A DNA stretch of 64,000 bases from Agromyces sp. Leaf222. Lineage in GTDB: Bacteria; Actinomycetota; Actinomycetes; Actinomycetales; Microbacteriaceae. Location: positions 681,651-745,650 of the forward strand of contig NZ_LMKQ01000001.1 of assembly GCF_001421565.1 (NCBI RefSeq), given 5' to 3'. This document shows, piece after piece, positions 14,549 to 59,624 of the stretch; position 1 is the stretch's first letter, and every line of letters starts with the position of its first letter. Below the pieces are notes generated by a model. The model searched no databases. It worked only from the letters and a program-made list of their open reading frames with translations, and had not been told where the DNA came from. A program made the translations under genes and the position numbers.

Positions 14549-14632
14549 TGTGAGCCGTCGCGATAGTTGATCCGGCGATACATCCAAGTTGATCCCGTTC
14601 AAACTACTTGATCCTTGAGAGGTAGTTGATCC
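14549..14632. repeat. nrdF-proximal transposon end with four transposase-site repeats
   Basis: Four 10-bp repeats lie in the same orientation: TAGTTGATCC (14564), AAGTTGATCC (14586), TACTTGATCC (14605) and TAGTTGATCC (14623), spaced 18-22 bp. They resemble the closely packed TnsB sites of the Tn7 right end, which is also the end next to its target gene. Confidence 0.8.
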
Positions 14633-14678
14633 ATGGAAATGCTGGGATGTACGCCGGATCGCTGTGAGGGGCCCTGAG

Positions 14679-14954
14679 ATGGGCAGAACTCCCCGCGAGA
14701 GTCCGCGGGAGCTCACGAGTTCGTGGCCCGACGTTCCTTGCGACGATCCGGCCGGGGAGATCGCGCGCCAGTTCGTGCTCAAGCTTGTGCAGGCCACAGA
14801 CGGACAGAGCATTCGAGCGGTAGCCGAAAAGGCCGGTGTGAATGAAGGAACAATCCGACGGGTGATCGCGGGGGAGTCCTGGCCGGATCTCCGGACGATC
14901 GCTCGTGTGGAGATCAGTTTGAAGAAACGGCTGTATCGCTCTTCGGCCATTTGA
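14679..14954 (+). CDS. Small helix-turn-helix protein at the transposon end
   Basis: A 91-residue protein with a Cro/XRE-like helix-turn-helix: the segment SIRAVAEKAGVNEGTIRRVIAGESWPDLRTIARVE contains the two helices and the GxxWPDxxT turn seen in such domains. The ATG at 14679 has GAGGGG 8 nt upstream. It is the first gene inside the transposon, and a broken copy of the same gene is found in the relict end at 59.8 kb, so it is a conserved part of this transposon family rather than random cargo. A role in controlling transposition is possible; it is not shown. Confidence 0.65.
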   Translation: MGRTPRESPRELTSSWPDVPCDDPAGEIARQFVLKLVQATDGQSIRAVAEKAGVNEGTIRRVIAGESWPDLRTIARVEISLKKRLYRSSAI

Positions 14955-15234
14955 TCCTCGGGATCGCTCGACGCCAGAAGGACGAGCCTCGAGGCCCGCT
15001 TCAAGTCGATGCTCAGTCCCGAACGTCGAGCGCGTAGCTCTTGTGGTTGCCGCGTTAAACGTCCCTTCATCGGGCTGTTTCTCCGGCGGGTCTTACGGGA
15101 ATGCACATGATGCTGGATTGCGTCGGCGCCCGCATGCGCGGCATCGAACGGAGGTTATGCCGACTGCGGACCGGCTTGCGGGCGGCGATACCTCGAGGCA
15201 TATTCTTCGCGTTGAATGACCGGAGTGGTTTCGG
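14955..15234. other. Intergenic stretch, no gene seen
   Basis: I see no coding region or clear signal here. It separates the transposon-end gene from the convergent metal-resistance block. Confidence 0.5.
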
Positions 15235-15885
15235 TTACTCGGTGAGTGCGGTGTCCAGCGCTTTGCGGAGGTCGTCGGGCGAGGTGAGTGGGATGTACTC
15301 GTCGTTGACGAAGATCGTCGGGGTGCCGGTGGCGCCCAGCGCGGTCGCGGCGTCGTAGTCCTGCTGGACTCTTGCTTCGGTGGCCGGGTCGGCAACTGCA
15401 TCGTCGTAGGCGGCGAGGTCGAGTTCCAGCTCTTGGGCGAATTCGCGGAACCGATCGGCCGCGGAGACCTGTTGTTCGCCCCATTCGGCCTGGGTCTCGA
15501 ACATGCGGTGGTACATCTCCTCGAACTTGCCTTGCTGGGCGGCAGCTTCAACCGAGATCGCCGCGGTGCGCGAGTTGAAGTGCCCGGGCAGGGGGAAGTA
15601 GCGGGTTACGAAGGTGACGCGGCCCGCGTACTCCTCGCGGAGTTCCTCGACGACCGGGTAGACGGCACCGCACACTTCGCATTCGAAGTCGAGGAACTCG
15701 GTGAACGTGACGTCACTGGTCTCAGCGACGTCGAGGCGGTGGCTGTTCTCAGCGACGACCGTCGAGATCGCTGGCGTATTCTGCGCGGCTCCGGGCTGGT
15801 TGAGCGCGATCGCGACGATGCCGGCTCCGCCAGCGAGGACGACTCCGGCAAGGATGCCGGCCTGGATCTTCGTGCTTCGCTTCAA
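15235..15885 (-). CDS. DsbA-like thiol-disulfide oxidoreductase, membrane-anchored
   Basis: A 216-residue thioredoxin-fold protein with one N-terminal transmembrane helix (residues 9-29) and the rest outside. The redox motif is CEVC (Cys69, Cys72) in FTEFLDFECEVC; the cis-Pro loop is GTPTIFVN near the C-terminus. This matches the DsbA/ActR-type thioredoxin_4 family that oxidises or isomerises exported proteins. It is the last gene of a leftward set with the CDF exporter and CmtR-like sensor, and may protect exported thiols against metal damage. Confidence 0.85.
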   Translation of the reverse strand: MKRSTKIQAGILAGVVLAGGAGIVAIALNQPGAAQNTPAISTVVAENSHRLDVAETSDVTFTEFLDFECEVCGAVYPVVEELREEYAGRVTFVTRYFPLPGHFNSRTAAISVEAAAQQGKFEEMYHRMFETQAEWGEQQVSAADRFREFAQELELDLAAYDDAVADPATEARVQQDYDAATALGATGTPTIFVNDEYIPLTSPDDLRKALDTALTE

Positions 15886-15946
15886 TGGATTCCTTGTGTC
15901 AGGGTCGTCGGTTCGACCGGGCCGTGGTGGGTGTCAACGGGACCCA

Positions 15947-16629
<683 letters not shown>

Positions 16630-16633
<4 letters not shown>

Positions 16634-16968
16634 GCGCAGGTGCAGCTCTCTCCGGCGCAGCAGTCGGGATCGACGAAGAGCACGACCTGCAGCAGCTCGT
16701 TGAGCGCGGGTGCGAGGTGCGGGTCGGCGAGGCGATACCAGGTGCGGCGCCCGTCCGGCACCGCTTCGACGAGACCGCATCCGCGCAGGCAGGCCAGCTG
16801 GTTCGACATGACTTGGCGCGAGACGCCGAGCGCGTCGGCGAGGTCGGATGGGTAGGCCGGGGCCTCACGAAGCGCCAGAAGGACACCGGCACGGGTCGCG
16901 TCCGAGAGCGCGTACCCGAGCCGGGCCAGTGCGGCGGTGTGCGTCACGGACGCGGTGGCGGTCGACAT
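16630..16968 (-). CDS. ArsR-family metal sensor, CmtR-like
   Basis: A 112-residue winged-helix repressor. The recognition region ALGVSRQVMSNQLACLRGCGLVEA carries Cys60 and Cys64, the same CxxxC spacing as Cys57/Cys61 of mycobacterial CmtR, and the Cys-rich C-terminus DCCAGESCTCA supplies the third ligand. CmtR senses Cd(II) and Pb(II). It is translationally coupled to the exporter gene, so it most likely represses its own operon and releases it when metal binds. Confidence 0.87.
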
Positions 16969-17040
16969 GCGAACGACTGTACAGGAATCACTGAATTAAG
17001 GAAACGCTGTATCTGACGGTTCCGCTCTCGAGCGTGCACG

Positions 17041-17080
17041 GAACGGGCGGGGCAACCTGAGGTTGGCCCCCGCCCCTTCC
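17041..17080. terminator. Hairpin between DUF305 gene and the ArsR/CDF operon
   Basis: GGGCGGGGCAACC and GGTTGGCCCCCGCCC form a long GC-rich stem with a 3-nt loop and one bulge, starting 40 nt after the leftward DUF305 gene stops. Probable intrinsic terminator. Confidence 0.65.
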
Positions 17081-17119
17081 GCCGCTCGGCAAGTGGCCGA
17101 GCACGCATTCGTGACGGAA

Positions 17120-17728
17120 TCAGCTGGACGCGAGCAGGCTACGCATTTGCTGGATCTCGGCGGTCTGGTCGGTGATGATCTTCTCGGCCAGAGCCGTCGC
17201 GTCCGGATTCTGGCCTTCTGCGGCTTCGGTCTCGGCCATGTCGATAGCGCCTTCGTGGTGGACGATCATCTGTTCGAGGAACAGGGTCGAGCCTTCCTCG
17301 CCAGTGGCGGATTCAAGCGCCGCCATGTCATCCTCGGACATCATCATTCCGCCGTGGTCCATGCCTTCCATGCCGGATGACTCCACAGGCTGGCCCCAGT
17401 CGTCGAGCCATTCGGTCATGGTGTCGATCTCGGGCTGCTGGGCGTCCTTGATGGTCTGTGCGAGGTCGGCTACGGCCGGATCGACGCCGTCTTTTTCGAG
17501 CAGCATGTCGGACATCTCGATCGCCTGCTGATGATGGGCGATCATGCCCATCGCGAATGCAACATCTGCGTCATTGAAGTCGGCGGCCGCGTCGCTGTCG
17601 GAGGGCGCGGGCGAGGAGCCGTGGTCCATGCCGGACATGTCGCCGCTCGAGCCGGTACCGGAGCAGCCGGCGAGGAGGACGGTGGCGAGGAGCCCGATGG
17701 CGGGCAGCATTGTGGTGCGGAGTTTCAT
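17120..17728 (-). CDS. DUF305-family lipoprotein, Met/His-rich
   Basis: A 202-residue secreted lipoprotein (lipobox LLAGC at residues 18-22) with two DUF305-type halves: FAMGMIAHHQQAIEMSDMLL and LEQMIVHHEGAIDMAETEA. Met- and His-rich linkers (DMSGMDHGSS, GMEGMDHGGMMM) suggest copper or silver binding outside the membrane. DUF305 proteins are regularly found in copper-resistance loci, as here beside CsoR and CopB. Confidence 0.88.
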   Translation of the reverse strand: MKLRTTMLPAIGLLATVLLAGCSGTGSSGDMSGMDHGSSPAPSDSDAAADFNDADVAFAMGMIAHHQQAIEMSDMLLEKDGVDPAVADLAQTIKDAQQPEIDTMTEWLDDWGQPVESSGMEGMDHGGMMMSEDDMAALESATGEEGSTLFLEQMIVHHEGAIDMAETEAAEGQNPDATALAEKIITDQTAEIQQMRSLLASS

Positions 17729-17833
17729 GAGGAGTCTCTCTGTTCGATCAGTCGAAGGTGGGCCGTACGAGCACGAGGCTCGAACGGTGGTGTGGGTGTG
17801 ATGCGGCCGCGTTGGCGGGCGGCCGCCGCCCTT

Positions 17834-18280
17834 TCACGTGCGACTGATCGAGAGAGCGATGAGTGATGGGGGGCGCGGTTCAGTTGGTGCCGGTACGAAG
17901 CGCCCGAGGAATTGGATCGGGCGCAGCGTCCAAGCTCCTCGGTGGGCCCGGGCTGCGGCGAGGAGCGTCAGGGCGGCGACGAGTAGGGCGAGAAGGCAGG
18001 CCATGGCGAGCATCTCGTGGTCCTGTCCGCATGCGGGGCCGCAGGCCGCCGAGTTCGCGGGGTCCTGGTCTGCTGCCCCGTGGCCGCCGGCATGATGGGT
18101 TGTGTCTTCAACGGCGGCGACGATGACGGTGTGGTGGTTGAGTGCACTCGTTTGGTTGGCAGTGCCCGAGAGCACGTGCATGGCCAGGAGGCCGATCAGG
18201 ATGCTTGGGATCGCGAGGGCGATGAGCAGGACGCGTGCTCGTGCATCAGTGCTGGCCATTCGGCGCAGATGCATCAGCAT
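17834..18280 (-). CDS. DUF6153-like membrane protein
   Basis: A 148-residue protein with an N-terminal hydrophobic helix (about residues 16-38), a His/Cys-containing extracytoplasmic loop (TTHHAGGHGAAD, CGPACGQDHEM) and a second helix (ACLLALLVAALTLLAAARA). This layout matches the DUF6153 family commonly found with DUF305 proteins in actinobacterial copper loci. Function unknown; metal binding by the loop is plausible. Confidence 0.65.
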   Translation of the reverse strand: MLMHLRRMASTDARARVLLIALAIPSILIGLLAMHVLSGTANQTSALNHHTVIVAAVEDTTHHAGGHGAADQDPANSAACGPACGQDHEMLAMACLLALLVAALTLLAAARAHRGAWTLRPIQFLGRFVPAPTEPRPPSLIALSISRT

Positions 18281-18341
18281 GGTCGTCTCCTCGGGGTTCC
18301 CTCAGGCTAACTGGGCTCGTCGCGCGGGGTTGGAGTGGTTC

Positions 18342-18650
18342 TCAGGATCGCACCAGCCGGGCGATCGCTTCGGAGGCTTCCTTGATCTTCTCGTCGGCTT
18401 CGGCGCCGCCCCGGACGGCCGCGTCGACGACGCAGTGCTTGAGGTGGTCGTCCAGGAGGCCGAGTGCGACGGATTCGAGCGCGGAGGTGAGTGCGGAGAT
18501 CTGAGTCAGGATGTCGATGCAGTACTTTTCCTCATCGACCATCCGGTGGATCCCGCGGGTCTGGCCTTCGATGCGGCGAAGCCGTGCCAGGTACTTGTCC
18601 TTGTCGGTGATGTACCCGTGCGACTCATGGGTGTGAGAGGTGTCGGTCAT
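18342..18650 (-). CDS. csoR: Copper-sensing transcriptional repressor CsoR
   Basis: A 102-residue all-helical repressor. The Cu(I) ligands Cys44, His69 and Cys73 have exactly the spacing (25 and 4) of Cys36-His61-Cys65 in Mycobacterium CsoR, within YCIDILTQ and HLKHCV. LARLRRIEGQTRGI is the conserved DNA-binding helix. It lies 26 nt downstream of copB. CsoR-type palindromes in front of copZ and of the MFS gene at 24.2 kb are its probable targets. Confidence 0.95.
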   Translation of the reverse strand: MTDTSHTHESHGYITDKDKYLARLRRIEGQTRGIHRMVDEEKYCIDILTQISALTSALESVALGLLDDHLKHCVVDAAVRGGAEADEKIKEASEAIARLVRS

Positions 18651-18676
18651 GATGTGCTCATCTCGGTGAGGTGGGG

Positions 18677-20935
18677 TCAGGCCCGCGCGTGGTCCGGTTC
18701 CTTGACGGTTGCTTCTCCGAGTGTGCCTGCCCGGTCGCCGAGGAGCGCCCTGGTGCTGGCCTCGGGTCGGAGGTCGAGTCGGCGCAGGAGTTGCGCGTTC
18801 AGGGCGACGATGATGGTCGAGAGGGACATCAGGATCGCTCCGACGGACATGGGCAGGACGAATCCGATGGGTGCGAGCACGCCTGCGGCGAGCGGGACCG
18901 AGATGAGGTTGTACCCGGCGGCCCACCAGAGGTTCTGCTTCATCTTGCGGTAGCTCGCCCGGGACAGCTGGATCACCGAGAGGACCGAGCGGGGGTCGTC
19001 GCTGGCAAGGATCACCCCGGCCGACGCGATCGCGACGTCGGTGCCGGCACCAATTGCGAGGCCCACATCTGCCTGCGCGAGTGCCGGGGCGTCGTTCACG
19101 CCGTCGCCGACCATGGCGACCTTCCGGCCCTCGTCCTGCAGCTCCTTGACCTTTGCGGACTTCTCCTCGGGTCGTACGCCGGCGAAGTACCGGTCGATGC
19201 CGAGTTCGGTCGCGACCGAGTGCGCGACCGCGTCAGCGTCGCCGGTGATCATCACCACCTGCACGCCGAGCTCGTGGAGCGCCGCGATGGCTTCACGGGA
19301 CTCGTCACGGATCGCGTCGGCGAGCTTGAGCGCGCCGATGACTCGACCGTTCTCGAGGACGTGCAGGATGATCGCGCCGTCCTGCCGCCACTGGTCGGCG
19401 ATCGGCAGCTCTGTGACGTTCTCCTCGGACAGCAGGTGCGGGCCGCCAACGCGAATCTGGGCTGATTCGACCATCGCGGTCACCCCGACGGCGGGCGCGG
19501 AATCGAAGTCGGTGGCTCGAGGAATGGTGAGTCCTCGATCGGTTGCGGTCGCGACGATCGCGCGAGCGAGCGGGTGCTCGGAGTCGGCCTCGGCGGCGGC
19601 GGCCAGGGCGAGGACCTGGTCGGCGTCCCACCCGTCCACGGTCTCGATGCTGCTGACAGTGGGCTCGCCCTTGGTGAGGGTGCCGGTCTTGTCGAACAGG
19701 ACGGTGTCCACGGTGCGCATGCTCTCGAGCGCGAGGCGGTCCTTGATCAGCACACCACCACGGGCCGCGCGCTCCGTCGCGATCGAGACGACGAGCGGGA
19801 TCGCAAGTCCCAAAGCGTGGGGGCAGGCGATCACCAGGACAGTGATGGTCCGGACGACTGCTTCGTCGGGGTTACCGACGACAAGCGTCCAGACGATGGC
19901 GGTGAGAACCGCGGCCCCGAGCGCGAACCAGAACAGCGCCGCAGCGGCTTTATCGGCGATCCGCTGGGCACGGGAGGAGGAGTTCTGCGCGTCGGTGACG
20001 AGGCGTTGGATGCCAGCGAGTGCGGTGTCGTCGCCGACGGCCGTGACTTCGACGCGGATGCCGGAATCCGTCGCGACGGTCCCAGCGACGACCGGGTCAC
20101 CTTCGCTGCGGCGGACCGGCTTGGACTCGCCGGTGATCATCGACTCGTCCACGCTCGCCGACCCCGCCACGACTCGGCCATCGGCGGGGACACGGCCGCC
20201 GGGGCGCACGACGACGACATCGCCGACACGGAGATCGCCCGGCGACACGGTGACGGTCGTGTCGCCGTCGACGCGTTCGGCCTCGTCGGGCAGGAGCGCG
20301 GCGAGGGAGTCCAGCGCCGAGGTGGTCTGCGCGAGGGAGCGCATCTCGACCCAGTGGCCGAGCAGCATGATCACGATCAGCAGCGCGAGCTCCCACCAGA
20401 AGTCGAGCTCGTGATCCAGCAGTCCAAGGCTCGCGCCCCAGGATGCGAGGAACGCGACCGTGATCGCGAGCCCGATCAGGAGCATCATGCCGGGCTTGAG
20501 CGCCCGGATCTCCGAGACGGCGCCGGTGAGAAATGGTCGCCCGCCCCACACATACATCACGGTTCCGAGGATCGGCGAGATCCACGCGAGCCAGGGCTGG
20601 TCGGGCAACTCGTAGCCGAGCACCATGGCGAACATCGGCGAGAACACGATGACCGGGACGGCGAGGATCAGGTTGATCCAGAACAGGCGCCGGAACTGAC
20701 CGACGTGATCGCCGTGTCCGGAATGCCCGCCATGGCCGGTGTGACCGGTGTGGCCGGCGTGCTCACCGTGACCAGTGTGTTCGGCGTGCGCAGCGGTCGC
20801 GGAGTTGTGCCCGACGTGGGCGTCGTGCATGTCATGCCCGTGGGTCTGCTCATGCCCTCCGTGCGCGTGCGTGCCGGCGTCGTGAGGAGGCGCCGCAGCG
20901 GCTGGGTCACGATGGTGCTGGTGCTGGTCGTTCAT
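18677..20935 (-). CDS. copB: Copper/silver-exporting P-type ATPase, CopB type
   Basis: A 752-residue P1B ATPase. The His-rich N-terminus (repeated HTGH/HGGH units up to about residue 90) replaces the CxxC domains of CopA. The membrane metal motif is CPHALGLAIP, the CPH form of the CopB subgroup. Catalytic motifs: TGES, DKTGT, HP in DSEHPLA, and GDGVNDAPAL. The ATG at 20935 begins the His-rich segment; the longer open frame upstream overlaps the YHS gene and is not used. It exports Cu or Ag and is the central gene of the block. Confidence 0.95.
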   Translation of the reverse strand: MNDQHQHHRDPAAAAPPHDAGTHAHGGHEQTHGHDMHDAHVGHNSATAAHAEHTGHGEHAGHTGHTGHGGHSGHGDHVGQFRRLFWINLILAVPVIVFSPMFAMVLGYELPDQPWLAWISPILGTVMYVWGGRPFLTGAVSEIRALKPGMMLLIGLAITVAFLASWGASLGLLDHELDFWWELALLIVIMLLGHWVEMRSLAQTTSALDSLAALLPDEAERVDGDTTVTVSPGDLRVGDVVVVRPGGRVPADGRVVAGSASVDESMITGESKPVRRSEGDPVVAGTVATDSGIRVEVTAVGDDTALAGIQRLVTDAQNSSSRAQRIADKAAAALFWFALGAAVLTAIVWTLVVGNPDEAVVRTITVLVIACPHALGLAIPLVVSIATERAARGGVLIKDRLALESMRTVDTVLFDKTGTLTKGEPTVSSIETVDGWDADQVLALAAAAEADSEHPLARAIVATATDRGLTIPRATDFDSAPAVGVTAMVESAQIRVGGPHLLSEENVTELPIADQWRQDGAIILHVLENGRVIGALKLADAIRDESREAIAALHELGVQVVMITGDADAVAHSVATELGIDRYFAGVRPEEKSAKVKELQDEGRKVAMVGDGVNDAPALAQADVGLAIGAGTDVAIASAGVILASDDPRSVLSVIQLSRASYRKMKQNLWWAAGYNLISVPLAAGVLAPIGFVLPMSVGAILMSLSTIIVALNAQLLRRLDLRPEASTRALLGDRAGTLGEATVKEPDHARA

Positions 20936-20984
20936 GGTTCGACCTTCTCTCAGAAGCGAGTGGGCGTCGAGGGGATGCCGCCGG

Positions 20985-21239
20985 CTACGCGGCGATGTAG
21001 GCAGCCGGGTCTGCGTCGAACTTCGGTCCGCAGCCGGCGCAGCAGAGCCAGTACCGGACGCCGTCGACGTCACGGTACAGCCCCGCCGCCTCAGCGGTGG
21101 ACTTCAGCACGGTGCTGCCCTTCATGACCGGGCATTCCGCGAGGTCTTCCGGGGCGGACTGGCTCAGCAGATCGGTGGCGTGAGCGGGCTTGGCCGCGGG
21201 GTGTGATGCACCGGGGACGCTGCAGCAGCTGTCGTTCAT
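20985..21239 (-). CDS. YHS-domain metal-binding protein
   Basis: An 84-residue protein ending in a YHS domain: AECPVMKGSTVLKSTAEAAG and YWLCCAGCGPKFDADPAAY. The N-terminus MNDSCCSVPGASH adds a Cys pair. YHS domains bind copper or silver and accompany P1B ATPases. It lies between copZ and copB in the same direction. Confidence 0.85.
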   Translation of the reverse strand: MNDSCCSVPGASHPAAKPAHATDLLSQSAPEDLAECPVMKGSTVLKSTAEAAGLYRDVDGVRYWLCCAGCGPKFDADPAAYIAA

Positions 21240-21322
21240 GTCCGTGGTCCTTTCATGGTCGGGCGCTTGCCCGAGTAGCAAGTCGAGGGTGGCGCGAGGC
21301 CCTACCGGGTGTCGTGTTCCTG

Positions 21323-44963: not shown

Positions 44964-45716
44964 ATGAGACCGAAGAAACCAATTACGAAGAAACTCGCCC
45001 TCCAGGACGGCCGGGACGAGCTGCACTGGCGGGCGGACGGGGAAGCGCACAGCGCTCCGATCGATCGCGCAGCGAGGATGTTCGCGGACCAGGCACTCGA
45101 CTTCGCCAGACTGCCGCGAAAGTTTCCAGGTCAGAGCAACTACCACGGCAGTTACTGGTTCGCGGGCATGGGGGCATCGATCTGGCACGAGTCGCTTACC
45201 GAGTACCTGGGGCTCATGCTCATCGACCATCTCCACGAGGTCCGCGCCGTCTACCCGCAGCCGTTTCTCATCACCTTCGCTGATGGCCGAAGCCACTATC
45301 CGGACTTTCTGGTGGTCCACGCGGACCAGCGGCGCACGGTGATCGACGTGCACCCAACAAGCACCACCACGGAAGCAGACAAGGTCACGTTCGAGAACAC
45401 CCGAACTCTGCTCGAACGCATCGGATGGCGGTACGAGCTGCTGACCGAGATGGACCCGGTCCATCAGGCCAACTTCGAGTTCATCGCTGGCTACCGTCAC
45501 CCGCGATATCGCCCGACCGACGAACTCGAAGCGAAGCTGCTCATGGCAGCGGCCCGTCGACCGACATTCGGAAGCCTCCGGGAGGCGCTTCGCAGCGATC
45601 GCCCCGGAGAGCACCTGCCGGCGGTGTACCACCTCATGTGGCGTCGCCAGATCGGGCTTGATCTCACGACCCCCTTCACTGATCGAACACAGCTCTGGAA
45701 AGGAGCATCACGATGA
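44964..45716 (+). CDS. tnsA: TnsA-like transposon endonuclease subunit
   Basis: A 250-residue protein of the TnsA N-terminal endonuclease family, which cuts the 5' transposon strand together with TnsB. Core residues: Glu76 and Glu80 in IWHESLTEYLGLM, Asp114 in SHYPDFLVVHA, then VIDVHP. In the family the last motif normally has Lys (Q/DVK); here it is His130. The C-terminal part (residues 170-250) would contact TnsC. First gene of an operon; stop overlaps tnsB start (ATGA). Confidence 0.85.
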   Translation: MRPKKPITKKLALQDGRDELHWRADGEAHSAPIDRAARMFADQALDFARLPRKFPGQSNYHGSYWFAGMGASIWHESLTEYLGLMLIDHLHEVRAVYPQPFLITFADGRSHYPDFLVVHADQRRTVIDVHPTSTTTEADKVTFENTRTLLERIGWRYELLTEMDPVHQANFEFIAGYRHPRYRPTDELEAKLLMAAARRPTFGSLREALRSDRPGEHLPAVYHLMWRRQIGLDLTTPFTDRTQLWKGASR

Positions 45717-47692
45717 TCCCCAACATGACGCAACTGCGAATCGGATCGACCATCGAACTCGACGGCGGCGAGTACCGGGTCGTCGAGTACGGGGGAGGGT
45801 TCTTCAAGCTCAGAGGGGAGCTATCGGACGAGTACCTCATCATCGACCACCTCGAGCTCGCCCGTCGGATCCCGAGGTCAGTGCAGGAAGGCTCGGTCGA
45901 AAACGCAGCGCCGGAACCAACGATCGCTGTACTCGTGGACAAGCTCGACGAGTTCGGTCGACGCCTTGTGCCTCATCTCCAGGAACTCATCGACGCCACC
46001 CCAGCGGTCGGCTCCGCCCCACGGGCTGAGTACGACCTCTCACAGCCGATGACCTGGCGCCTTGAGGCGAAGCTGCTCGAACTGCACCGTGAAGGCATCG
46101 ACATCGAGATCGCGACACTCAAGCGGAAACTCAAACGGTACAAGCAGTCCGGGCCAGCAGGCCTTGTCGACCGTCGTGGCTTGCGGTCCGAGCCGGCGCT
46201 CGGACGAGCCGACGAACGTGTCGTCGAGTGCCTCGCGGCGATCTTGGCGGAGTCAATCGACAAGTCGACGTCGACGCTGACGAAAGTCCGGGCGGAGCTC
46301 GCGGAGCGCCTCATGGTCGACCACCCCGGAGCGGGTGTTGAGCTGCCGTCGGTCGCAACGATCCGCAGGTATGTGAACATCCTCGATGGAGGTCGGAAGG
46401 TGCTCGGCAGTGCGGTGCAGAGGCAGAGCATCAGCAATGTTCCAAAGCGTGCGTTCAGTGCGCGCCTGGCGACCGCGCCGGGTCAAGAAGTTCAGGTCGA
46501 CTCAACCAAGCTCGACGTCTTCGTCCGCACATCTGGCGGGGTTGAACGACCAACGCTGACCATCATGATCGACAAGGCCACCCGCTCGATCATCGCTTCA
46601 AGCATCCGACTGGGAGCAGCCACAGGTCACGACCATGCCGTGCTTCTCGCGCGCTGCCTGGTGCCGAAGCCGCTCAGACCCGGTACTGAGTACTACAGCG
46701 AGCACGATCTCCCAGAACTCGAGTGGAGCCGGTACCTCACCGCGGAGCAGCGCCTCGAGTACGACGTCCGACGTCCGTACATCGTGCCTCAGCGGATCAT
46801 CACCGACAACGGTGCAGACTTCGTCTCCGACGTGTTCCGGTCAGCGTGCGCACGGTACGGAATCTCGCTCACGGAGTCGGCCCCGGGAACCCCCACCGAC
46901 AAGGCCCAGGTCGAGCGGATGTTCGGCACGATCCGTACGAAGTTCTCACAGTTCCTCCCTGGCTACTCCGGCGGGCGGACGGAGTTCCGCGGTACTGCCC
47001 CCGAAGGAGAGGGGGACCTCTTTGATCTCGACACCCTCAATGAGCTCTTCGATCGATGGGTCGGAGTTGTGTGGCAGAACCGCCGCCACGACGGGCTCGT
47101 CGATCCCCGAGCGCCGCACATCAAGCACACGCCGAACACCATGTACTCGGCCCTGCTCGACCTGACCGGCTACATCCCCGTCGCGCTCGTCGAGGAGGAC
47201 TATGTCGAACTCCTTCCCCGGGAGCGCCGAACCATTCAGACCGATGGCATCGAGTTCCGCAGCCGAATGTACGACTCCGTGCACCTCGGACCGCATCGCA
47301 GCCACCGCGATGACCGCGGCCGTGCCCTCCTGTACGACGTCCACTTCGACCCCAACAACCTGCAGCAGATCTGGGTCAGACCCGAACTCGAAGACGACTG
47401 GATCACCTGCGAGTGGAAGGAAGCGGACGGGCTCTCGCGACCTCACCTGGCAGCGACCATGCGGAAAGCGCACCAGCTCACCCTTCAACGCGGTGGATTC
47501 ACCGACGACGAAGCAGACGACATCACGATCGCCGCCGTGAAGGACGCACATGCCGTTTCGGCTCAGCGAGACCTCGACCAACTCAATCAGCTCCGCGAAA
47601 CCATCCACGAGCACGGGCTGAACACCACGTCGCCGGCCCCGACCGAACCCGACTGGGCGGACGACGACTTCACCGAGCTCGACACATTCTGA
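45713..47692 (+). CDS. tnsB: TnsB-like DDE transposase
   Basis: A 659-residue transposase of the Mu/Tn7 group. N-terminal small beta domain (residues 10-50), helix-turn-helix DNA-binding domains (residues 110-240, e.g. IEIATLKRKLKRYKQSGPAGLVDRRG), catalytic core with Asp263 (EVQVDSTKLD), Asp365 (IITDNGADF) and Glu401 (KAQVERMF; D-35-E), then a beta-barrel and an acidic C-terminal tail that would contact TnsC. It should bind the TA(G/C)TTGATCC repeats at the transposon ends and cut and join the 3' strands. Confidence 0.93.
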   Translation: MIPNMTQLRIGSTIELDGGEYRVVEYGGGFFKLRGELSDEYLIIDHLELARRIPRSVQEGSVENAAPEPTIAVLVDKLDEFGRRLVPHLQELIDATPAVGSAPRAEYDLSQPMTWRLEAKLLELHREGIDIEIATLKRKLKRYKQSGPAGLVDRRGLRSEPALGRADERVVECLAAILAESIDKSTSTLTKVRAELAERLMVDHPGAGVELPSVATIRRYVNILDGGRKVLGSAVQRQSISNVPKRAFSARLATAPGQEVQVDSTKLDVFVRTSGGVERPTLTIMIDKATRSIIASSIRLGAATGHDHAVLLARCLVPKPLRPGTEYYSEHDLPELEWSRYLTAEQRLEYDVRRPYIVPQRIITDNGADFVSDVFRSACARYGISLTESAPGTPTDKAQVERMFGTIRTKFSQFLPGYSGGRTEFRGTAPEGEGDLFDLDTLNELFDRWVGVVWQNRRHDGLVDPRAPHIKHTPNTMYSALLDLTGYIPVALVEEDYVELLPRERRTIQTDGIEFRSRMYDSVHLGPHRSHRDDRGRALLYDVHFDPNNLQQIWVRPELEDDWITCEWKEADGLSRPHLAATMRKAHQLTLQRGGFTDDEADDITIAAVKDAHAVSAQRDLDQLNQLRETIHEHGLNTTSPAPTEPDWADDDFTELDTF

Positions 47693-47730: not shown

Positions 47731-48822
47731 ATGAACGAGCCCACCGACCGCGACGACGAGCACGGCTACGGACACTTCGACCGCCGCGAAACGTTGCTCG
47801 CGCTCCTCACCGAAGAACGCCCCGGAAAGCCTGAAGCGAGCCTCGCCGAGTACTTGACGATGACCGAAGACCAGCGGCTCGAGTTCAACGACGACCGAAT
47901 CGACTTCATCATCCACGGAAAGGTGGTCAAGACCCCACCGCTGCAGGAACTTGGCCGTCTCCTCGAACGCGCTCTCCGTATCGCACGCCGCCCGGTCGGG
48001 CGCGGAGGACTGATCCTCACCGGCCCCCCGACCATGGGTAAGACCACTGCGTCACTCCAAGCAATGCGAAGCGCCCTGCATCGCCATGAAGCGGAGTACC
48101 CGGAATGGCGATCGCTCGACCACACGCCCGTCGTCTACATCGAGGTTCCGCCCGGTTCGACGGCCAAAGCACTCATGGGCCGAATCCTCGGGTTCTTCGG
48201 GCATCCCGTCCCACCCCGCATGACGCTCGAGGAACGAACGCAAGCCGTGGTCTACCACCTCAACCGAGGCCGGACGAGCCTGCTCGTCATCGACGAGATG
48301 CAGAACCTGGCCAAGCTCACACAGGGCAGCTTCGAGACCGCGCAGGCGATCAAGGACCTCACCAACGGCATCCGCGCCGTACCCATGCTCGTGGGTATCG
48401 ACCTCGATAAGACCATCATCACGACCGGGACCCTCGGCGAACAGTTCGCCTCGCGATCGAAGACGGTGAGCCTGGGCCGCCTGGGTTGGGCGACCGACGA
48501 AGAACGGAAGGTGTGGCTCGGTGCCATCTACGCGTTCGAGACCAACTTGTGCCTACTCGCTCACCCGCCGCGTGCGCTGTTCCCGCACGCCGAGCTCCTC
48601 TGGAACCTCACTAGGGGGTCGATCAGCGCACTCGCGAGCCTGCTCACCACCGCCGCGATGGATCTCATCGACGCCGACGACCCAGAGAACGAGACGATCA
48701 CCCCGGATGTCATCGCTGGGATCAGGCTCGACCTCACCACGGAACGAGAGATTGCCCGGGTCGTCGAACTGGAGGCCAAGGTCGGAGCCAAGAGGCAGAA
48801 GAAGATTCGCGATGCTGCCTGA
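47731..48822 (+). CDS. tnsC: TnsC-like AAA+ regulator
   Basis: A 363-residue AAA+ ATPase. Walker A GPPTMGKT at residues 98-105, Walker B LLVIDEMQN at 184-192, and an arginine-finger region around FASRSKTVSLGRLGW. It links the target selector to TnsAB and enforces target immunity in Tn7. ATG at 47731; its last 11 nt overlap the tniQ start. Confidence 0.92.
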   Translation: MNEPTDRDDEHGYGHFDRRETLLALLTEERPGKPEASLAEYLTMTEDQRLEFNDDRIDFIIHGKVVKTPPLQELGRLLERALRIARRPVGRGGLILTGPPTMGKTTASLQAMRSALHRHEAEYPEWRSLDHTPVVYIEVPPGSTAKALMGRILGFFGHPVPPRMTLEERTQAVVYHLNRGRTSLLVIDEMQNLAKLTQGSFETAQAIKDLTNGIRAVPMLVGIDLDKTIITTGTLGEQFASRSKTVSLGRLGWATDEERKVWLGAIYAFETNLCLLAHPPRALFPHAELLWNLTRGSISALASLLTTAAMDLIDADDPENETITPDVIAGIRLDLTTEREIARVVELEAKVGAKRQKKIRDAA

Positions 48823-50953
48823 CCTCGGCCGGCCGTTCCCTGTCCGGGTCCGTCCCCATCGAGGCGAGACCTCCGACAGCTACACCGTGAGGCTCTGCGC
48901 CGCCAACCACGTCGGAACCCTCGAATGGGGATACCTCATTGGTCAGCTCAGCAGGCAGCTCGGGGACTCCGATCACAGCAGTGTCTCCGAGTTGCTCGCC
49001 GAACGGAAAGGCTCGCTTCGGCAGGGACACTTCGCTGCCGAACGCGCTGCAATGCCGCATCATGCGGACGGGAGCCGGTGCGCGCAATGCGATACCGGAA
49101 ACCGAACCCGGTATGCATGCCAGCTGTGCGTCGAAGGCGCCCTCATCCCCGTGTACCCGCATCGGCGAGGCCACGTGTGCACGCGGCACCGAATCTGGAC
49201 TGGGCCAGACGCAGACCTGGTCGCACAGGTCACTGTTGGTGACAACGTCCTCGAAGCTGACCGCGCCTACCGGAAGCTCATCCGACGCGGACACCTCGAC
49301 GCCCACCGGCTCGCAGAACTCGAAGGTTGCATTGACGCGTGGCGTCGCGCCGAGGACGAGGTCCTCGGGGCCCCGGAACGATTCGCGTACGCGATCCGGG
49401 TTGCCGCCCGCATCGTCGAGTACGGGCGTTGCCTGGGCGCTCAGCCGACACATGCAGCTGATTTGTATGGCCTTCTCGACGGGCTCCTCGATGCGGCCGT
49501 CGGCGCCGAGCATGCAGTGCTCACCGACCGCGTCTGGTTGCTCCTCGAAACGACCGACGCATCGGATGCCGAGCCGCGGGGAGCATCCGGTCTGCACACG
49601 TTCCTGCCGAGCCGCCGCCAAGCCCTGGCGGAACCGGGGGAGCGGACCGACGCGCTCCGTACCAGTAGCTACCCACGCGGTCTGCACCTGCATCACACAC
49701 AGTTCCACTCCTCGACGCGCGCGGAAACTCGCGACCAGATCGCGGCCCGATCCGACATCGAGGTTGAGTACCGATGCGCACGGGGCCACGATTTCGTATC
49801 AACCCCCGCGATTCTCCGCGCGGCTGGCACAGGTGGGGCAGACGGCTGCCCGTATTGCAGCAACCGCCTACCGCTCAGCGGATTCAACACACTCGATGAC
49901 CGGTACCCCAACCTCGCCGCCCAATGGCACCCAACCCGAAACGGCAACCTCCACCCAGACCAGGTGCTGCCCGGCAGCGGCATCAAACGCTGGTGGCTCT
50001 GCCCTGACGGCCACACCTACGACGCCACCCCGAACACCCGAACCACGTCGGGTACCGGCTGCGGCTACTGCGCCAACCAACGCGTCGACCCTGCCATCAA
50101 CTCGCTCGCACACACCCATCGGCACCTGGTGCTCCAATGGGATGCATCGAAGAATGGCGATCTCACGCCCCAGGACGTCGTCGCCGGATCGGAACGCCAA
50201 GTGTGGTGGCGGTGCGCACACGGGCACAGCTACCGAACCGCCGTCACCAACCGTGCCGCAGGTCGCGGATGCCATTACTGCACCGGTCAGCACGTCGACC
50301 CGGAACGTACGAGCTTGGCGGCCAAGCGACCCGACATCGCCGCAATATGGCACCCGACCAAGAACGGCACACTGACCCCTGCCGACGTCATGCCTGGCTC
50401 GCAGAAGAAGGTCTGGTGGCGGTGCGACAACGGCCACGACTACGACGGCGCAATCGCGTCCCGTGTCAAAGGCGTCGGATGCCGGTACTGCTCCAACCGC
50501 GCACGATCAACGACGAACACGATGGCCGTCGCCCGCCCTGACCTTGCCGCGCAATGGCACCCGACAAAGAACAACACCCTCACCCCTGCCGACGTCGTAC
50601 CCGGCACCAGCAAACGCATCTGGTGGATCTGCCAACACCAGCACGAATGGCAAGTCAGCGGCGACAACCGGGTCCGCCAGCAAACCGGATGCCCCTACTG
50701 CTCGAACAAACGTGTCTGGCCAGGCTTCAACGACCTCGCCACCACCCACCCACATCTCGCCGTCGAGTGGCACCCCACCAGAAACGGAGACGTCACCCCA
50801 GACGCCATCGTCGCCGGCACCGCGAAGAATGTCTGGTGGCTCTGCCCCACGGGCCATGAGTACCGTGCCAGTGGAGACCGCCGCGTCAGCAAGAGCGCGG
50901 GTTGCAGAGAGTGCCAGCGAAACCGCCGCGAAGCCCAAACGCCCGCGGAATGA
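48812..50953 (+). CDS. TniQ/TnsD-like target selector with six zinc-ribbon modules
   Basis: A 713-residue protein. The N-terminal part (1-130) is TniQ-like: PVRVRPHRGETSDSYTVRLCAANHV, with zinc ligands Cys90/Cys93 (CAQC), Cys103/Cys106 (CQLC) and the C-x2-H at 123-126. A helical middle follows (140-300). From about residue 316 to the end are six repeats of about 65 residues with the pattern WHPTxNGxLTPxDVxPGS, WWxCxxGHxY, and GCxYC, i.e. probable zinc ribbons of the DUF4379 type. In Tn7, TnsD binds the chromosomal attachment site; I infer this array reads the nrdF end. Start ATG at 48812 is used because the TniQ domain begins there. Confidence 0.85.
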   Translation: MLPDLGRPFPVRVRPHRGETSDSYTVRLCAANHVGTLEWGYLIGQLSRQLGDSDHSSVSELLAERKGSLRQGHFAAERAAMPHHADGSRCAQCDTGNRTRYACQLCVEGALIPVYPHRRGHVCTRHRIWTGPDADLVAQVTVGDNVLEADRAYRKLIRRGHLDAHRLAELEGCIDAWRRAEDEVLGAPERFAYAIRVAARIVEYGRCLGAQPTHAADLYGLLDGLLDAAVGAEHAVLTDRVWLLLETTDASDAEPRGASGLHTFLPSRRQALAEPGERTDALRTSSYPRGLHLHHTQFHSSTRAETRDQIAARSDIEVEYRCARGHDFVSTPAILRAAGTGGADGCPYCSNRLPLSGFNTLDDRYPNLAAQWHPTRNGNLHPDQVLPGSGIKRWWLCPDGHTYDATPNTRTTSGTGCGYCANQRVDPAINSLAHTHRHLVLQWDASKNGDLTPQDVVAGSERQVWWRCAHGHSYRTAVTNRAAGRGCHYCTGQHVDPERTSLAAKRPDIAAIWHPTKNGTLTPADVMPGSQKKVWWRCDNGHDYDGAIASRVKGVGCRYCSNRARSTTNTMAVARPDLAAQWHPTKNNTLTPADVVPGTSKRIWWICQHQHEWQVSGDNRVRQQTGCPYCSNKRVWPGFNDLATTHPHLAVEWHPTRNGDVTPDAIVAGTAKNVWWLCPTGHEYRASGDRRVSKSAGCRECQRNRREAQTPAE

Positions 50954-51173: not shown

Positions 51174-51414
51174 TCGCGCCGATAAGTGACCCGGTTCACT
51201 CACGTCTGAGAACGAGAAGGCGCCACCGCCGCGCGAGATCAAGGAGGGCTCAAGATCGCCTCCGCGATGGCGGAGAAAATCGGCGGTGGCGTCTCGGAAT
51301 GCGTACTTGGACCGGGCAACGAGGAGAGTCCCGCATAGCGAAGCCACACGAGCGAGTTCCGATGGATGGGGTATCAGCGAGGCGAGCGTGGAACGGCCGG
51401 AGAGCGCTGCGAGG

Positions 51415-53376: not shown

Positions 53377-53390
53377 ACGGAGTCGAGCAG

Positions 53391-54314: not shown

Positions 54315-54370
54315 TTCGGTCCTCCTAGATTCAATTCGTTCGCGTGAGCAGCAAGCAGATTTATACGTCG

Positions 54371-54390
54371 AATCTGCTGTACAGCAGATT
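54371..54390. promoter_or_regulatory. Perfect 20-bp palindrome AATCTGCTGTACAGCAGATT
   Basis: Lies in the 140-bp divergent gap between the amidase and the AAA-like gene; a half-copy GCAGATTTATA is at about 54354. Likely operator for one or both genes. Confidence 0.7.
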
Positions 54391-54456
54391 AGCCGTGATA
54401 ATCGGTCGCCACAAGATGTACGACGAGATTGGTGTATGATTCCCGTGGAGGTAGTC

Positions 54457-56673
54457 GTGCTGGTTTCGTCTGACTTAGGGGCGACTTCGCTCGAGATAGT
54501 TGAGCGCATGGCTCAGTTCTTCCGCGGCGGGCCGCCTCGGAACACCTTGGTGCTCGGTACGTTCGGATCGGGCACAACCAGCGTGGTTAGCGATGCAGTT
54601 GAGCGAGGTCGCGATCAGGGCGTCGTGGTCGAGTTGTCGAGTAGAGCGATTCTGGCCTCAAATCTCGACGAAATTGCGGACCTCGTTCGCGCTCAGCTTG
54701 GGGCTGACGGTCGGGATGTAGGCCCGGCTGCTCGTGTTGTTGTTGTGGTCGAGAACATTGACGCGATGCTTGAGAATCTGCCGGACTCCCACATGCATGA
54801 TTTCTTCGCCCTCTTCAGGGATCCGAGTCGACTTGGCGTTAGCGCTGTGCTGTTGGTCGGTTCGGCTCGTCCTGCGGTGCGCCTCCAACAGCAGGAAGGC
54901 ATCGAGTGTCTCAGGCTTGCGCCGCTCCCAGTCGAAGACGCCATCCGGCTAATCGGTCGGATCGCTGCCCGCGACCCTTGGATCGGGGACGCCTTCGATG
55001 AGCGTCGACTGGAGATTGAAGGCGCGCTGCGGCAAATCAATCCCATCATTCGGGGAAATGCACGCTTTTGCTCGCTTATGGCCACCCATCTCAGCGAAGG
55101 AGATATGTCGCGAATTGTCGGCCGCGCCCGGGCGAGCTGGCGAGCACATATGGATACGTACGTCAGGGAGCGGCTGGGTTCACTGGCGCCAGCTGAGCGG
55201 AGGATTGTTGCGCGGCTCGCGGTGTCTGGTCGACCTCAGACTGTCACGCAAATTGCGGAGCGGATCGGCACCAGCAATCAGTCCGCCGCCACAGCCCTCG
55301 GCCGGCTCTCCAGCGCTGGGTGGGTCTCGGTTATTGCCCCTGTCGAAGGCGCAGACCGGCGCAGGAGTTGGTATGACCTCGTTGATCCTTGTGTGCGACT
55401 TTTCTTCCAGGATGACGACGCCCTCGACTTCACAGAAGTCATCGCCGAGGGATCGAGACTCAGGCAGGGAACTAACGAGAGTCAGCCTCTGGGGTTGCTT
55501 CGGCGAGATGTGGACGCTCACGAAAACAGTGCTCGCATTAGAAGCGTGTTCGGCGATTGGGTGAGTGGCCGTGATCTCTATCGCCAACTGGTAGTCGAGC
55601 GAGCTCTGGAAGTTGGCCTCGATGACGAGCGAACGTCGCGGGCGCTTCGCGAGCATATCCGTCTCTCGGCTGAGCTCGGCGACCGTGAGGCAGCAGCAAT
55701 CGCGTTCGACGCAGCTATCCGCGCTTCTGACCGAATGCTCGGCAGCGACTCAGCGGAAGGCGTCGCGCTGCGACTGGACGCAGCCTGGAACTTGCTTGAG
55801 CTTGATCGACCGGGTGAAGCCATACGAGTGTTTGAGGAAGCACTTGCGGCTCTTGGCGATAGCGATGAGAACGATCGCAATACAGCGCGTCTGGACGCTC
55901 TTCAAAACCGAGCCCGTGCGCTTGGCCAACTCGGGGATGTGGATGCCGCCGTCCATGCTTTCGAAGATGTGCTTGAGCAGCGACGGCGTCTGCTGCCAAA
56001 CGACCACGAGTCGATCCGAGGCTGTCTCAACGGATTGGCCTGGTGGACGGGAGTCGGCGGGAAAGCGCACGAGGCTGTGCGGATTTACGAGGAGCTTGCG
56101 ACCACACCGGAGGCAACTGCCCTCGAGCGTTTGAGATATCGCGAGTCCGAGGCGTACTGGATTGCGCAGGATCCGAGCGCTGGGCCCGGCATAGCGTCCG
56201 CTCGGCTGTTGAATCTGGCATCGGAATTTGGCGAGGCAGATGGCCGAGATGCGCAGCGCAGCGACGCGCGTCGCCGAATCCTTCGAGAAGCATTGAAATG
56301 GCACCTCGTTGCGAGTCCCTCGGGGTTCGAGGACGCGCCGGTGCGTGACGTGGATCCGAAGGACCTCGCCGAAGTGGTTCTCAGTCACGTCCGCGAACAT
56401 AGGGACGACCCCGCCGCGCTGGCACGCCTTCCATCTGCCACCACCGAGTTGCAGTTACTCGGAATTGTCCTTCGAGCTGCCTTTTCGCCTTCTTCGCATG
56501 ATGTGTACTGGCGTGCGACGGCGATCAGTTCGCTTGCGTCGCGTTTTCGCGGCGAGCTTGCCGGTCTGTTCGGAGATCTGGAGGCGGCGCTCGTTGGCGA
56601 TGCCGCCGCAGAATCAGGGCTGCCGGTCGAGTGGCGGCGAATCGTTTCCGAGATCCAGTCTGGACCGAGCTGA
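54457..56673 (+). CDS. AAA-like ATPase with winged helix and TPR repeats
   Basis: A protein of about 738 residues (GTG at 54457 has GGAGG 5 nt upstream; ATG at 54436 would add 7 residues). The N-terminal P-loop-like domain has LVLGTFGSGTTSVV in place of Walker A, with Thr where Lys is normal, and VVVVVENIDAML as Walker B. A winged helix follows (SLAPAERRIVARLAVSG ... IGTSNQSAATALGRLSSAGWV), then about 350 residues of helical TPR-like repeats (AGEAIRVFEEALAAL, VDAAVHAFEDVLEQRRRLLP). This is an ORC/STAND-like layout seen in regulators and defence proteins. Activity may be lost or altered by the Walker A change. Confidence 0.65.
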   Translation: MLVSSDLGATSLEIVERMAQFFRGGPPRNTLVLGTFGSGTTSVVSDAVERGRDQGVVVELSSRAILASNLDEIADLVRAQLGADGRDVGPAARVVVVVENIDAMLENLPDSHMHDFFALFRDPSRLGVSAVLLVGSARPAVRLQQQEGIECLRLAPLPVEDAIRLIGRIAARDPWIGDAFDERRLEIEGALRQINPIIRGNARFCSLMATHLSEGDMSRIVGRARASWRAHMDTYVRERLGSLAPAERRIVARLAVSGRPQTVTQIAERIGTSNQSAATALGRLSSAGWVSVIAPVEGADRRRSWYDLVDPCVRLFFQDDDALDFTEVIAEGSRLRQGTNESQPLGLLRRDVDAHENSARIRSVFGDWVSGRDLYRQLVVERALEVGLDDERTSRALREHIRLSAELGDREAAAIAFDAAIRASDRMLGSDSAEGVALRLDAAWNLLELDRPGEAIRVFEEALAALGDSDENDRNTARLDALQNRARALGQLGDVDAAVHAFEDVLEQRRRLLPNDHESIRGCLNGLAWWTGVGGKAHEAVRIYEELATTPEATALERLRYRESEAYWIAQDPSAGPGIASARLLNLASEFGEADGRDAQRSDARRRILREALKWHLVASPSGFEDAPVRDVDPKDLAEVVLSHVREHRDDPAALARLPSATTELQLLGIVLRAAFSPSSHDVYWRATAISSLASRFRGELAGLFGDLEAALVGDAAAESGLPVEWRRIVSEIQSGPS

Positions 56674-56694
56674 AGGTCGTCCACCTCCGTCGCA

Positions 56695-57864: not shown

Positions 57865-58005
57865 TGACTCTTCCTCGTGTTTGTCTTTTCTATACATAGG
57901 GGCTTGGCTGGAGATTAGACACCGAACCGATTCTGTCCTGAAACACTGGGCTGCACTCCACAGAATGCCTTACTGGCTGCTTCGGGCTTCAGGTACAGCC
58001 GGGCG

Positions 58006-58338
58006 CTAGACCGAGGGCGCCTGTCCTCGGGGCTTCCATCCGAGCAACGGGGCGTCAGCCGGCACGTACAGCGGATGCTGCGGGTGCCCGAACTTGGTGA
58101 CCCCGAGCGCGTGGAGCGGGGGAAGGAGCGCGACCACTTGGGCCACACGGTCTTGGTCGGCATTCGTGCCCCAGCCGGCCACGACCGTCCCGGTGATCTC
58201 AGTGAGAATACGATCGTTGTCCGGCCCGACAGGATCGCCAGTCGCCTTCATCACCTTCGGATCCTTGGTCCGGAACGCGTATAGGTTCGCGACCATGCCG
58301 ACGAACCCCTCACGCTTCGCGCTCGCAGAGGGGTTGTT
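58006..58338 (-). pseudogene. DUF1643 remnant, 5' truncated
   Basis: The segment VANLYAFRTKDPKVMKATGDPVGPDNDRIL ... LGVTKFGHPQHPLYVPADAPLLGWKPRG is the C-terminal two-thirds of a DUF1643 protein. The conserved N-terminal part with the LNPSTAD motif is missing; upstream codons in frame do not look like it and run into the next gene. Probably decayed. Confidence 0.65.
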
Positions 58339-58411
58339 TTGAGCCAATCCAACGCGACCGCAAGCGATCGGTCCCGAGGAAGCACCGCCGCTAGATCCTC
58401 GAACTCGCGGA

Positions 58412-59200
58412 TCAGATTGGCTCGTCCACATCCCCGACATCAACGTTGAGCGCTTCGGAAAGATCCAGCCACTTGCCCAGCATGAACAGCCACTCGCGTC
58501 GAAATGCTTCACCGGCGCGCGTCACGCCGTCGTTCCTCAGCATTGACCAGAGCGCCTCAGCGTCGAGATTGCCGAGCTCGGGCCCGGTGGGATCGCGTCC
58601 TAGATCGATGAAGCCCCGCGCTGTCTGGTGTATTACCGACTGGGGCATGTGTCGTTCCTCGTCGGGCTCGAGAAAATCGATTCCGCGTGATGCGCTATTC
58701 AGGGCGACGTCCGCCTCGTCTGCGAAGAAGTCGAACTCGTCAGCTGCGTTCAAGTATTCGATTAGCGCGTCCAACTGGCTGGAATGAAGGACATCGTTCC
58801 ACGCTTGGAGCGGCTTGTCCTCGATCCTCTCCCGGATCTTGCCGACCCCGTACCCCACCAGTCGCAGTGAAGAGGGGTTGTATACATAGCCTTGGCGGAC
58901 CGCGCGCGCCAGTTGCTCTCGAATGACATTCCAGTCACTCTCGACCGCGGCGATAGCTTGACGGCGGCCCGAAGCGACCTCGACTCGCCAGAGGACGAAC
59001 CCAACTGCGAGGCCCGTGAAGCCACCAACGATAAGGTCCGGGAGGAAGGTGGACCAATCGAATCGCCAGACTGCCTGCGCGCCGAGAATGATTGCGATTC
59101 CGCTCAGAAGGCCAGCCGCCAGGCGCAGGCGATTTTGGCGGTAAAACGGAATCATGATCCGGAACATATGGCCTAACAGGCGCTCGGCTACTGCCGACAT
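58412..59200 (-). CDS. Hypothetical membrane-anchored protein
   Basis: A 262-residue protein with two N-terminal transmembrane helices (LRLAAGLLSGIAIILGAQAVW and LPDLIVGGFTGLAVGFVLW) and a helical cytoplasmic domain rich in acidic residues (AADEFDFFADEADVAL). Last intact gene before the right end. Family not recognised. Confidence 0.6.
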   Translation of the reverse strand: MSAVAERLLGHMFRIMIPFYRQNRLRLAAGLLSGIAIILGAQAVWRFDWSTFLPDLIVGGFTGLAVGFVLWRVEVASGRRQAIAAVESDWNVIREQLARAVRQGYVYNPSSLRLVGYGVGKIRERIEDKPLQAWNDVLHSSQLDALIEYLNAADEFDFFADEADVALNSASRGIDFLEPDEERHMPQSVIHQTARGFIDLGRDPTGPELGNLDAEALWSMLRNDGVTRAGEAFRREWLFMLGKWLDLSEALNVDVGDVDEPI

Positions 59201-59520
59201 GCCGAGTAAGTAGCCTCGATCGGAGAGGACGCCCTGTCTTTCTTAGTGGCGGAGGTTCCGGAACTGTCCCACCGAGAATGTCCTGCACGTCGCGTCTAGG
59301 TCGTCGAAGCGCGCTCCGACTCGGCGCGGACGGAGCTCGACCCTAGGTAACTTGAGAAATTGCACGATATGCGAAGCCAGACCCGTGCGATCTGCGCGGC
59401 GGACTTGCACGTTGACACTGGCGGAATTAATCGAGCCTAGGCCTCCCCAATCGAGATGCGGGCGGAGAACCTAAGCTGACCCATCCGGTTAGGCCGGTTC
59501 TCGCCGGACACGTCCGCACG
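59201..59520. other. Subterminal region of the right transposon end, no gene
   Basis: No coding region is supported. The stretch is less GC-rich than backbone and leads into the right-end repeats. Confidence 0.45.
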
Positions 59521-59624
59521 GGATCAAGTAGTTTGAACAGCACTGCCGGACAAAGTGCTCTGTCGCGCAGATGGCTCATGGATCAAGTAGCGCGCGGCCA
59601 GATCAAGTACCGAGATGGGTCACA
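59521..59624. repeat. Distal transposon end with three transposase-site repeats
   Basis: GGATCAAGTA at 59521 and 59580 and AGATCAAGTA at 59600 are inverted copies of the left-end repeats. The outer two are 20 bp apart; the third is 59 bp further in. This dispersed set of three resembles the Tn7 left end, the end away from its target gene. The outermost bases are GGGTCACA. The first site extends to an 18-bp match (GGATCAAGTAGTTTGAAC) with the reverse of the left end. Confidence 0.8.

Follow-up and report, generated by a model that had tools for sequence, protein, structure and literature searches.

Tn7 and its relatives are the described systems to which the element reported here can be compared. 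This element is a Tn7-like transposon of 45,076 bp that lies behind nrdF in a 64,000-nucleotide stretch of the genome of Agromyces sp. Leaf222 (contig NZ_LMKQ01000001.1, positions 681,651 to 745,650 of the forward strand). The whole stretch is called the window, and positions below are those of the window. In Tn7, the right end (Tn7R) adjoins glmS, and the two ends contain four and three TnsB sites. The selector protein TnsD recognises the final 36 bp of glmS, and the transposon enters approximately 20 bp past the stop codon (PMC2918618). TnsD proteins have long C-terminal parts that are thought to recognise DNA (PMC10293859). TniQ cores are joined to varying target-reading parts, and tRNA genes serve as sites for some of these systems (PMC10293859, PMC11406308). 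A 2021 survey described a Tn7-like clade dominated by Actinobacteria, in which no member had been experimentally characterised (PMC8649781). The clade itself is already known. The tnsA of the window falls in the NCBIfam family TnsA_like_Actin, and from this family match the element appears to belong to that clade.

What looks new is the use of nrdF as an attachment site and a TniQ protein that ends in six DUF4379 modules. A word search of the main text of the survey returned neither an nrdF site nor a DUF4379 selector (nrd 0, ribonucleo 0; PMC8649781). Among the transposon-literature matches listed, with subscription journals and supplements outside the coverage, nrdF was not mentioned. The literature search found no paper on a TniQ protein with a treble clef or zinc-ribbon. 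By titles and the starts of abstracts, the literature that joins nrdF and Tn7 concerns gene essentiality or fitness, and none of the DUF4379 literature concerns transposon targeting. Ends of this or other Tn7-like transposons occur at the same position in further species, so the element likely homes to the end of the conserved nrdF gene, and by analogy with TnsD it is probably guided there by a protein with a row of zinc-finger modules.

The boundaries can be read directly. The nrdF stop codon (TAA, 14540-14542) is followed by G, by CGTGG (14544-14548) and by the start of the element, TGTGAGCC, at 14549, which is 6 bases past the stop. The far terminus, GGGTCACA, ends at 59624, and CGTGG (59625-59629) follows directly. 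The termini are thus TGT...ACA with a 5-bp target duplication on each side. Compared as inverted repeats, the two termini agree at 9 of their outermost 12 bases and at 15 of the outermost 20. TTGATC-type repeats are present in four copies at the nrdF-proximal end (14567, 14589, 14608, and 14626), where they are probably TnsB sites. The far end has three GATCAA repeats (59522, 59581, and 59601). By the convention of PMC11406308, the terminus nearest nrdF is the right end. The features are as follows.

13562..14542, + strand: nrdF, for the beta subunit of a class Ib ribonucleotide reductase, with the proposed attachment site at its 3' end (TIGR04171, 489.8 bits, cut-off 355)
14544..14548: target duplication CGTGG, left copy (sequence)
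14549..59624, + strand: Tn7-like element, 45,076 bp (ends, duplication, tns genes)
14549..14635, + strand: nrdF-proximal end, called right in the Tn7 convention; carries four TTGATC repeats (repeat positions)
14664..14954, + strand: small helix-turn-helix (HTH) protein adjoining the end (Pfam HTH_3, 22.6 bits, below the cut-off of 23)
44964..45716, + strand: tnsA (NF033179, 161.4 bits, cut-off 110)
45713..47692, + strand: tnsB, DDE transposase with candidate residues D263, D365, and E401 (Pfam Mu-transpos_C, 28.8 bits, cut-off 21.7; PADLOC TnsB, E 2.5e-13; motifs)
47731..48822, + strand: tnsC, AAA ATPase, start set at the ATG at 47731 (Pfam TniB, 62.3 bits, cut-off 22.4; PADLOC TnsC, E 2.6e-4)
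48812..50953, + strand: tniQ, 713 residues, with a TniQ-like N-terminal part and six DUF4379 modules; proposed target selector (PADLOC TniQ, E 9.8e-5, residues 10-129; six DUF4379 stretches; model pLDDT 92)
59522..59624, - strand: far end, called left in the Tn7 convention; carries three GATCAA repeats (repeat positions)
59625..59629: target duplication CGTGG, right copy (sequence)
59630..59936, + strand: second, truncated nrdF-proximal end that has an internal deletion of about 75 bases, a remnant of an older insertion (97% over 211 bases, 92% over 101)

In keeping with a Tn7-like transposon, the element shares with Tn7 its TnsA, TnsB, TnsC, and TniQ-family selector, its TGT...ACA ends with repeated TnsB-type sites, and its 5-bp duplication. 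As in Tn7, insertion is just past the stop codon of a conserved gene and the end upstream of tnsA lies beside that gene. In the strict sense of an insertion behind glmS it is not Tn7, since the flanking gene is nrdF. It also differs in that insertion is only 5-6 bases past the stop and that a DUF4379 array replaces the DNA-binding part of TnsD. No Cas domain was found by Pfam in 39 scanned open reading frames (ORFs) of the element, and CRISPR arrays were not searched for; on the Cas proteins, it is not a CRISPR-associated transposon. PADLOC, run on 10 ORFs, gave a single Cas-type match, a weak Csa3 (E 0.0013) in 53914-56673. A TnsF-like protein was likewise absent from the Pfam results for the 39 ORFs, and so was TnsE, for which no aimed search was made. 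The original prediction had described a complete 45-kb element 6 nt past the nrdF stop with CGTGG on both sides, with related inverted-repeat ends containing internal repeats, and with TnsA, TnsB, TnsC, and TniQ-like proteins. The coordinates, the repeats, and the NF033179, Pfam, and PADLOC matches agree with all of this.

The boundaries were also ranked blind with a crude score among 2,753 TG..CA pairs that have a 5-bp repeat and span the tns genes. The 14549/59624 pair was second. The top pair, 9996/61261 (8 of 12), lies in host DNA and owes its rank to repeated 8-mers. Among the nine candidate pairs anchored no more than 60 bases from the nrdF stop, 14549/59624 ranked first.

The truncated second end and the empty site

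The second nrdF-proximal end, which the original prediction overlooked, starts directly after the right CGTGG. From this position it appears that there have been two insertions at the same base. On the 3' side of the truncated copy there are a nitroreductase gene and DNA with 99% identity, over 3,328 bases, to a close relative, G008. The nrdF of G008 has no element end. G008 carries approximately 4 kb of host DNA between nrdF and the identical block, and this DNA is missing from the window, which suggests that the far part of the older element was lost along with host flank. A comparison with the empty site of G008 covers only the left side, where G008 has TAAGCGAGGTCATT and the window has TAAGCGTGG-TGTG.

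A Tn7 copy makes its surroundings resistant to further Tn7 insertion (PMC11406308). In the window, such immunity may have been lost with the older copy, or it may be weak in the actinobacterial clade. The tandem remnant gives a way to test for target immunity in this clade. G147a, a sister element in another genome, likewise has an end-like repeat beside it, immediately past its far duplication, GGTGT.

Occurrence behind nrdF in the genus and in other genera

Sixty genomes of the genus were sampled. nrdF was found in 58, giving 59 full-length nrdF flanks (G021 has two), with the partial copies of G038, G044, and G045 left out of the count. The end type of the window is present behind nrdF in 6 of the 59 flanks, window included: G000, the window's own genome (score 240, 6 bases past the stop), G004 (172, 5 bases), G002 (99, 6 bases), G011 (85, 5 bases), G025 (74.5, 5 bases), and G048 (52.5, 6 bases). 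None of 5,900 dinucleotide shuffles scored above 49, and none of 8,000 real windows from fetched loci above 48; each of these values was reached. All six ends face nrdF, which is comparative evidence for one site and one orientation. G053 (46.5) and G003 (40.5) were rejected as carriers, with scores inside the null range and an offset that does not fit. G048, the weakest of the six, has a decayed far end approximately 2 kb on (score 96, against 38.5-49 in other genomes) and no matching duplication. The last nine bases before the nrdF stop are TGGGACTTC in 56 of the 59 flanks.

A 160-base end query gave six matches in the 60 genomes. The three strong ones were all at nrdF (G000 twice and G004). 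Of the weak ones, one was the far end of the window element, one was that of the G048 fossil, and one was in G011, 33 kb from nrdF (E 0.077). This search missed the nrdF fossils and is insensitive to decayed copies at nrdF or elsewhere. Strong matches among 398 genomes of the family were again confined to G000 and G004. The pattern TAGTTGATCCN{9,13}AAGTTGATCC matched three genome contigs, one of them actinobacterial (Agromyces allii). The other two, from a Clostridiaceae metagenome-assembled genome and from Sediminibacillus, may be chance and were set aside.

Of the 398 family genomes, 34 have an NF033179-type tnsA, as do 42 of 396 genomes of the order, with six genomes in both lists. Among the 34, a close class Ib nrdF is present in 21 and distant relatives only in nine, while G197, G235, G341, and G358 were not searched. 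In 3 of the 21, tnsA is downstream of nrdF, co-directional, and on the same contig: G000, G239, and G443, at 30, 8, and 12 kb. Contig breaks conceal this linkage in some family genomes, and in G313 the break is at nrdF itself. G239 and G443 belong to other genera of the family, and in each an element flanked by an exact duplication could be delimited. That of G239 is 14,862 bp long, has the duplication GAAAG, begins 19 bases past the nrdF stop, and matches at 12 of 12 terminal bases. The nrdF terminator is directly 3' of it. The G239 flanks rejoin on a single GAAAG. They resemble the sequence of G187, a genus mate in which nrdF and the terminator are present but no element is. The element of G443 is 14,268 bp long, has the duplication CTGGC, begins 24 bases past the stop, and matches at 11 of 12 terminal bases. 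It has tnsA, and neither tnsB nor tniQ was matched. The flanks of G137, a genus mate of G443, are too different to serve as an empty site. Judged by eye, the cargo of the G443 element (L228 with L227) seems to comprise a CBASS-like gene set together with type I restriction genes.

The proposal that the nrdF terminus is the attachment site is thus supported by 6 of 59 genus flanks and by two divergent elements in other genera. A fixed distance past nrdF was also expected; this is the case within the window lineage (5-6 bases) and does not extend across lineages (19 and 24 bases). An empty site that rejoins on one copy of the duplication is seen for G239 and G187, and for the window only on the left side with G008. 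Homologues at random places would have spoken for a lack of targeting. Sister elements do sit elsewhere, but those sites also look specific, and three lineages use nrdF.

The sister element of G292 is at the 3' end of a tRNA-Gly gene with the duplication CCAAT. In having a tRNA-gene site, it is like some of the modular TniQ/TnsD/TnsF selectors. The other delimited sister elements are those of G423 (CGAGA, intergenic) and G147a (GGTGT). In G683, G595, and G504, which are of one genus, tnsA is 24-41 kb upstream of nrdF and so near another site. The search for ends, made up of a duplication and an inverted repeat, covered 12 further tns loci at 20 kb and ten at 20-60 kb. This search, up to 60 kb, gave no believable end pair at G065, G060, G147b, G161, G430, G441, or G356. 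By eye, in the first 150 bases behind nrdF, G349 (L120) and G804 (L280) have TAGTTGG-type repeat arrays about 31 and 5 bases past the gene. By tblastn they have no tns gene, and no matching far end was present in 80 and 60 kb, which makes them leads and not evidence.

Target selection and its alternatives

We consider with good confidence that the element is one of the actinobacterial TnsA-TnsB-TnsC-TniQ transposons of the Tn7-like group, with the end upstream of tnsA towards nrdF, and that it is likely at nrdF because TniQ recognises the 3' coding end of that gene. Since TnsD binds the coding end of glmS in Tn7, TniQ would by analogy bind nrdF codons. TniQ could bind the conserved C-terminal codons of NrdF, probably through its six DUF4379 treble-clef modules, and hand the site to TnsC. 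TnsA and TnsB would then insert the element next to nrdF and before its terminator. An insertion past the stop and before the terminator would leave the NrdF protein unchanged. That the DUF4379 row reads DNA is suggested by its place, where TnsD has its DNA-binding part. The matches of the protein to TniQ by profile and by fold also speak for TniQ as the selector. A reading part made of treble-clef repeats would differ from those of the modular TniQ/TnsD/TnsF selectors and of CRISPR-associated transposons.

Several observations weigh against this proposal. The distance to the nrdF stop varies among lineages (5-6, 19, and 24 bases); such offsets are consistent with selectors that each read their own part of the nrdF end, yet leave room for the alternatives below. 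Sister TniQ-DUF4379 elements are mostly away from nrdF, and tnsA was within 200 kb downstream of nrdF in none of the 27 further order genomes (of 36) that have a close nrdF. The G443 element and the Agromyces fossils lack tnsB. The fold matches of TniQ are of modest strength, with Z of 4.0-5.5, a range into which an unrelated dehalogenase (5.4) also falls. Between the window and G239, TniQ is only 29% identical, over a 185-residue stretch of the N-terminal part.

It is also possible, if unlikely, that the shared position in the genus reflects common descent from one old insertion behind nrdF that was inherited and then decayed. The ends in G002, G011, G025, and G048 are indeed decayed and of one family, and tnsB was not found in these genomes or in G004. 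Against this, the window alone holds two ends in tandem, its 99%-identical neighbour G008 has no end, and the five bases that precede the end vary among the genus genomes. In addition, the elements of G239 and G443 are separate, with duplications of their own.

Selection of the site by another factor, for example the nrdF terminator region or the small HTH protein, with no reading of nrdF codons by TniQ, is improbable. Terminators are common, but strong end matches in the 60 genomes occur only at nrdF, and characterised Tn7 uses a TniQ-family protein, TnsD, for site choice (PMC2918618). HTH relatives adjoin the ends in G004 and G239, yet by tblastn they also occur away from recognisable ends (G147, G033, and a second copy in G239). 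This explanation would account for insertions between stop and terminator at varied distances (6, 19, and 24 bases), and for the duplicates of the nrdF 3' end behind nrdF in other genomes, as with integrase-type elements. A patchwork of several insertions and deletions between 14549 and 59624, with ends that do not belong to one mobile unit, is very improbable: the region does contain IS481 and IS21 elements and adjoins a remnant with a deletion, but the duplication is exact, the end repeats match, the tns genes lie between them, and G239 shows the same plan.

A wider idea is tentative, and we regard it as somewhat doubtful. Actinobacterial Tn7-like transposons may have swapped the DNA-reading part of TnsD for rows of DUF4379 treble clefs that read DNA piece by piece, in the manner of transcription activator-like (TAL) effectors. 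Exchange or recombination of modules could then retarget them to new safe sites, of which the C-terminal codons of NrdF would be one, reached several times. If the array reads DNA, its repeats could serve as a protein-only and perhaps programmable means to place very large DNA in actinobacteria. DUF4379, a domain of unknown function, would then also have a role that can be tested. The end of nrdF would add a highly conserved protein-coding safe site to those of Tn7-like elements, and TniQ with a DUF4379 array would be a selector design in the clade that the 2021 survey called experimentally uncharacterised.

A few further observations concern TniQ. Thirteen relatives showed no Pfam TniQ match in their N-terminal part, as scanned after removal of the first 90 columns of the alignment. 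By sequence, the TniQ part matched a single OmpH-like chain in the PDB (E 0.35) and nothing else, while DUF4379 is present in three mitoribosomal protein sequences there. One DUF4379 relative was found in viral contigs. G147 (L101 with L237 and L238) has two TniQ-DUF4379 genes in tandem, 3' of one tnsABC.

Other genes, cargo, and partial copies of nrdF

The small HTH gene was considered as a marker of nrdF elements and was dropped. TnsA of the window has the motif IDVH. The last place is K or R in 17 of 20 aligned relatives, and the H is shared by G161 only.

Partial copies of the nrdF 3' end were found in four genomes. That of G044 (C25:221649-227053, L124) is 5-10 kb downstream of nrdF and that of G814 (C1:2702958-2703041) is 48 kb downstream. 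Those of G045 (C1:481797-482435, L128) and G313 (C68:32987-33130) are on contigs other than that of nrdF. These copies look like attachment-site duplications of integrase-type elements, and nrdF may be a shared hotspot.

The cargo on the nrdF side (15235-21073) includes a DsbA-like protein, a CopM-type DUF305 protein, and a heavy-metal (copper-type) P-type ATPase. The insertion sequences within the transposon are the IS481 and IS21 elements, at 22091-23134 and 31646-34137. On the 3' side of tniQ there are large proteins, one without a family (51286-53220) and one with tetratricopeptide (TPR) repeats (53914-56673), which are possibly defence cargo.

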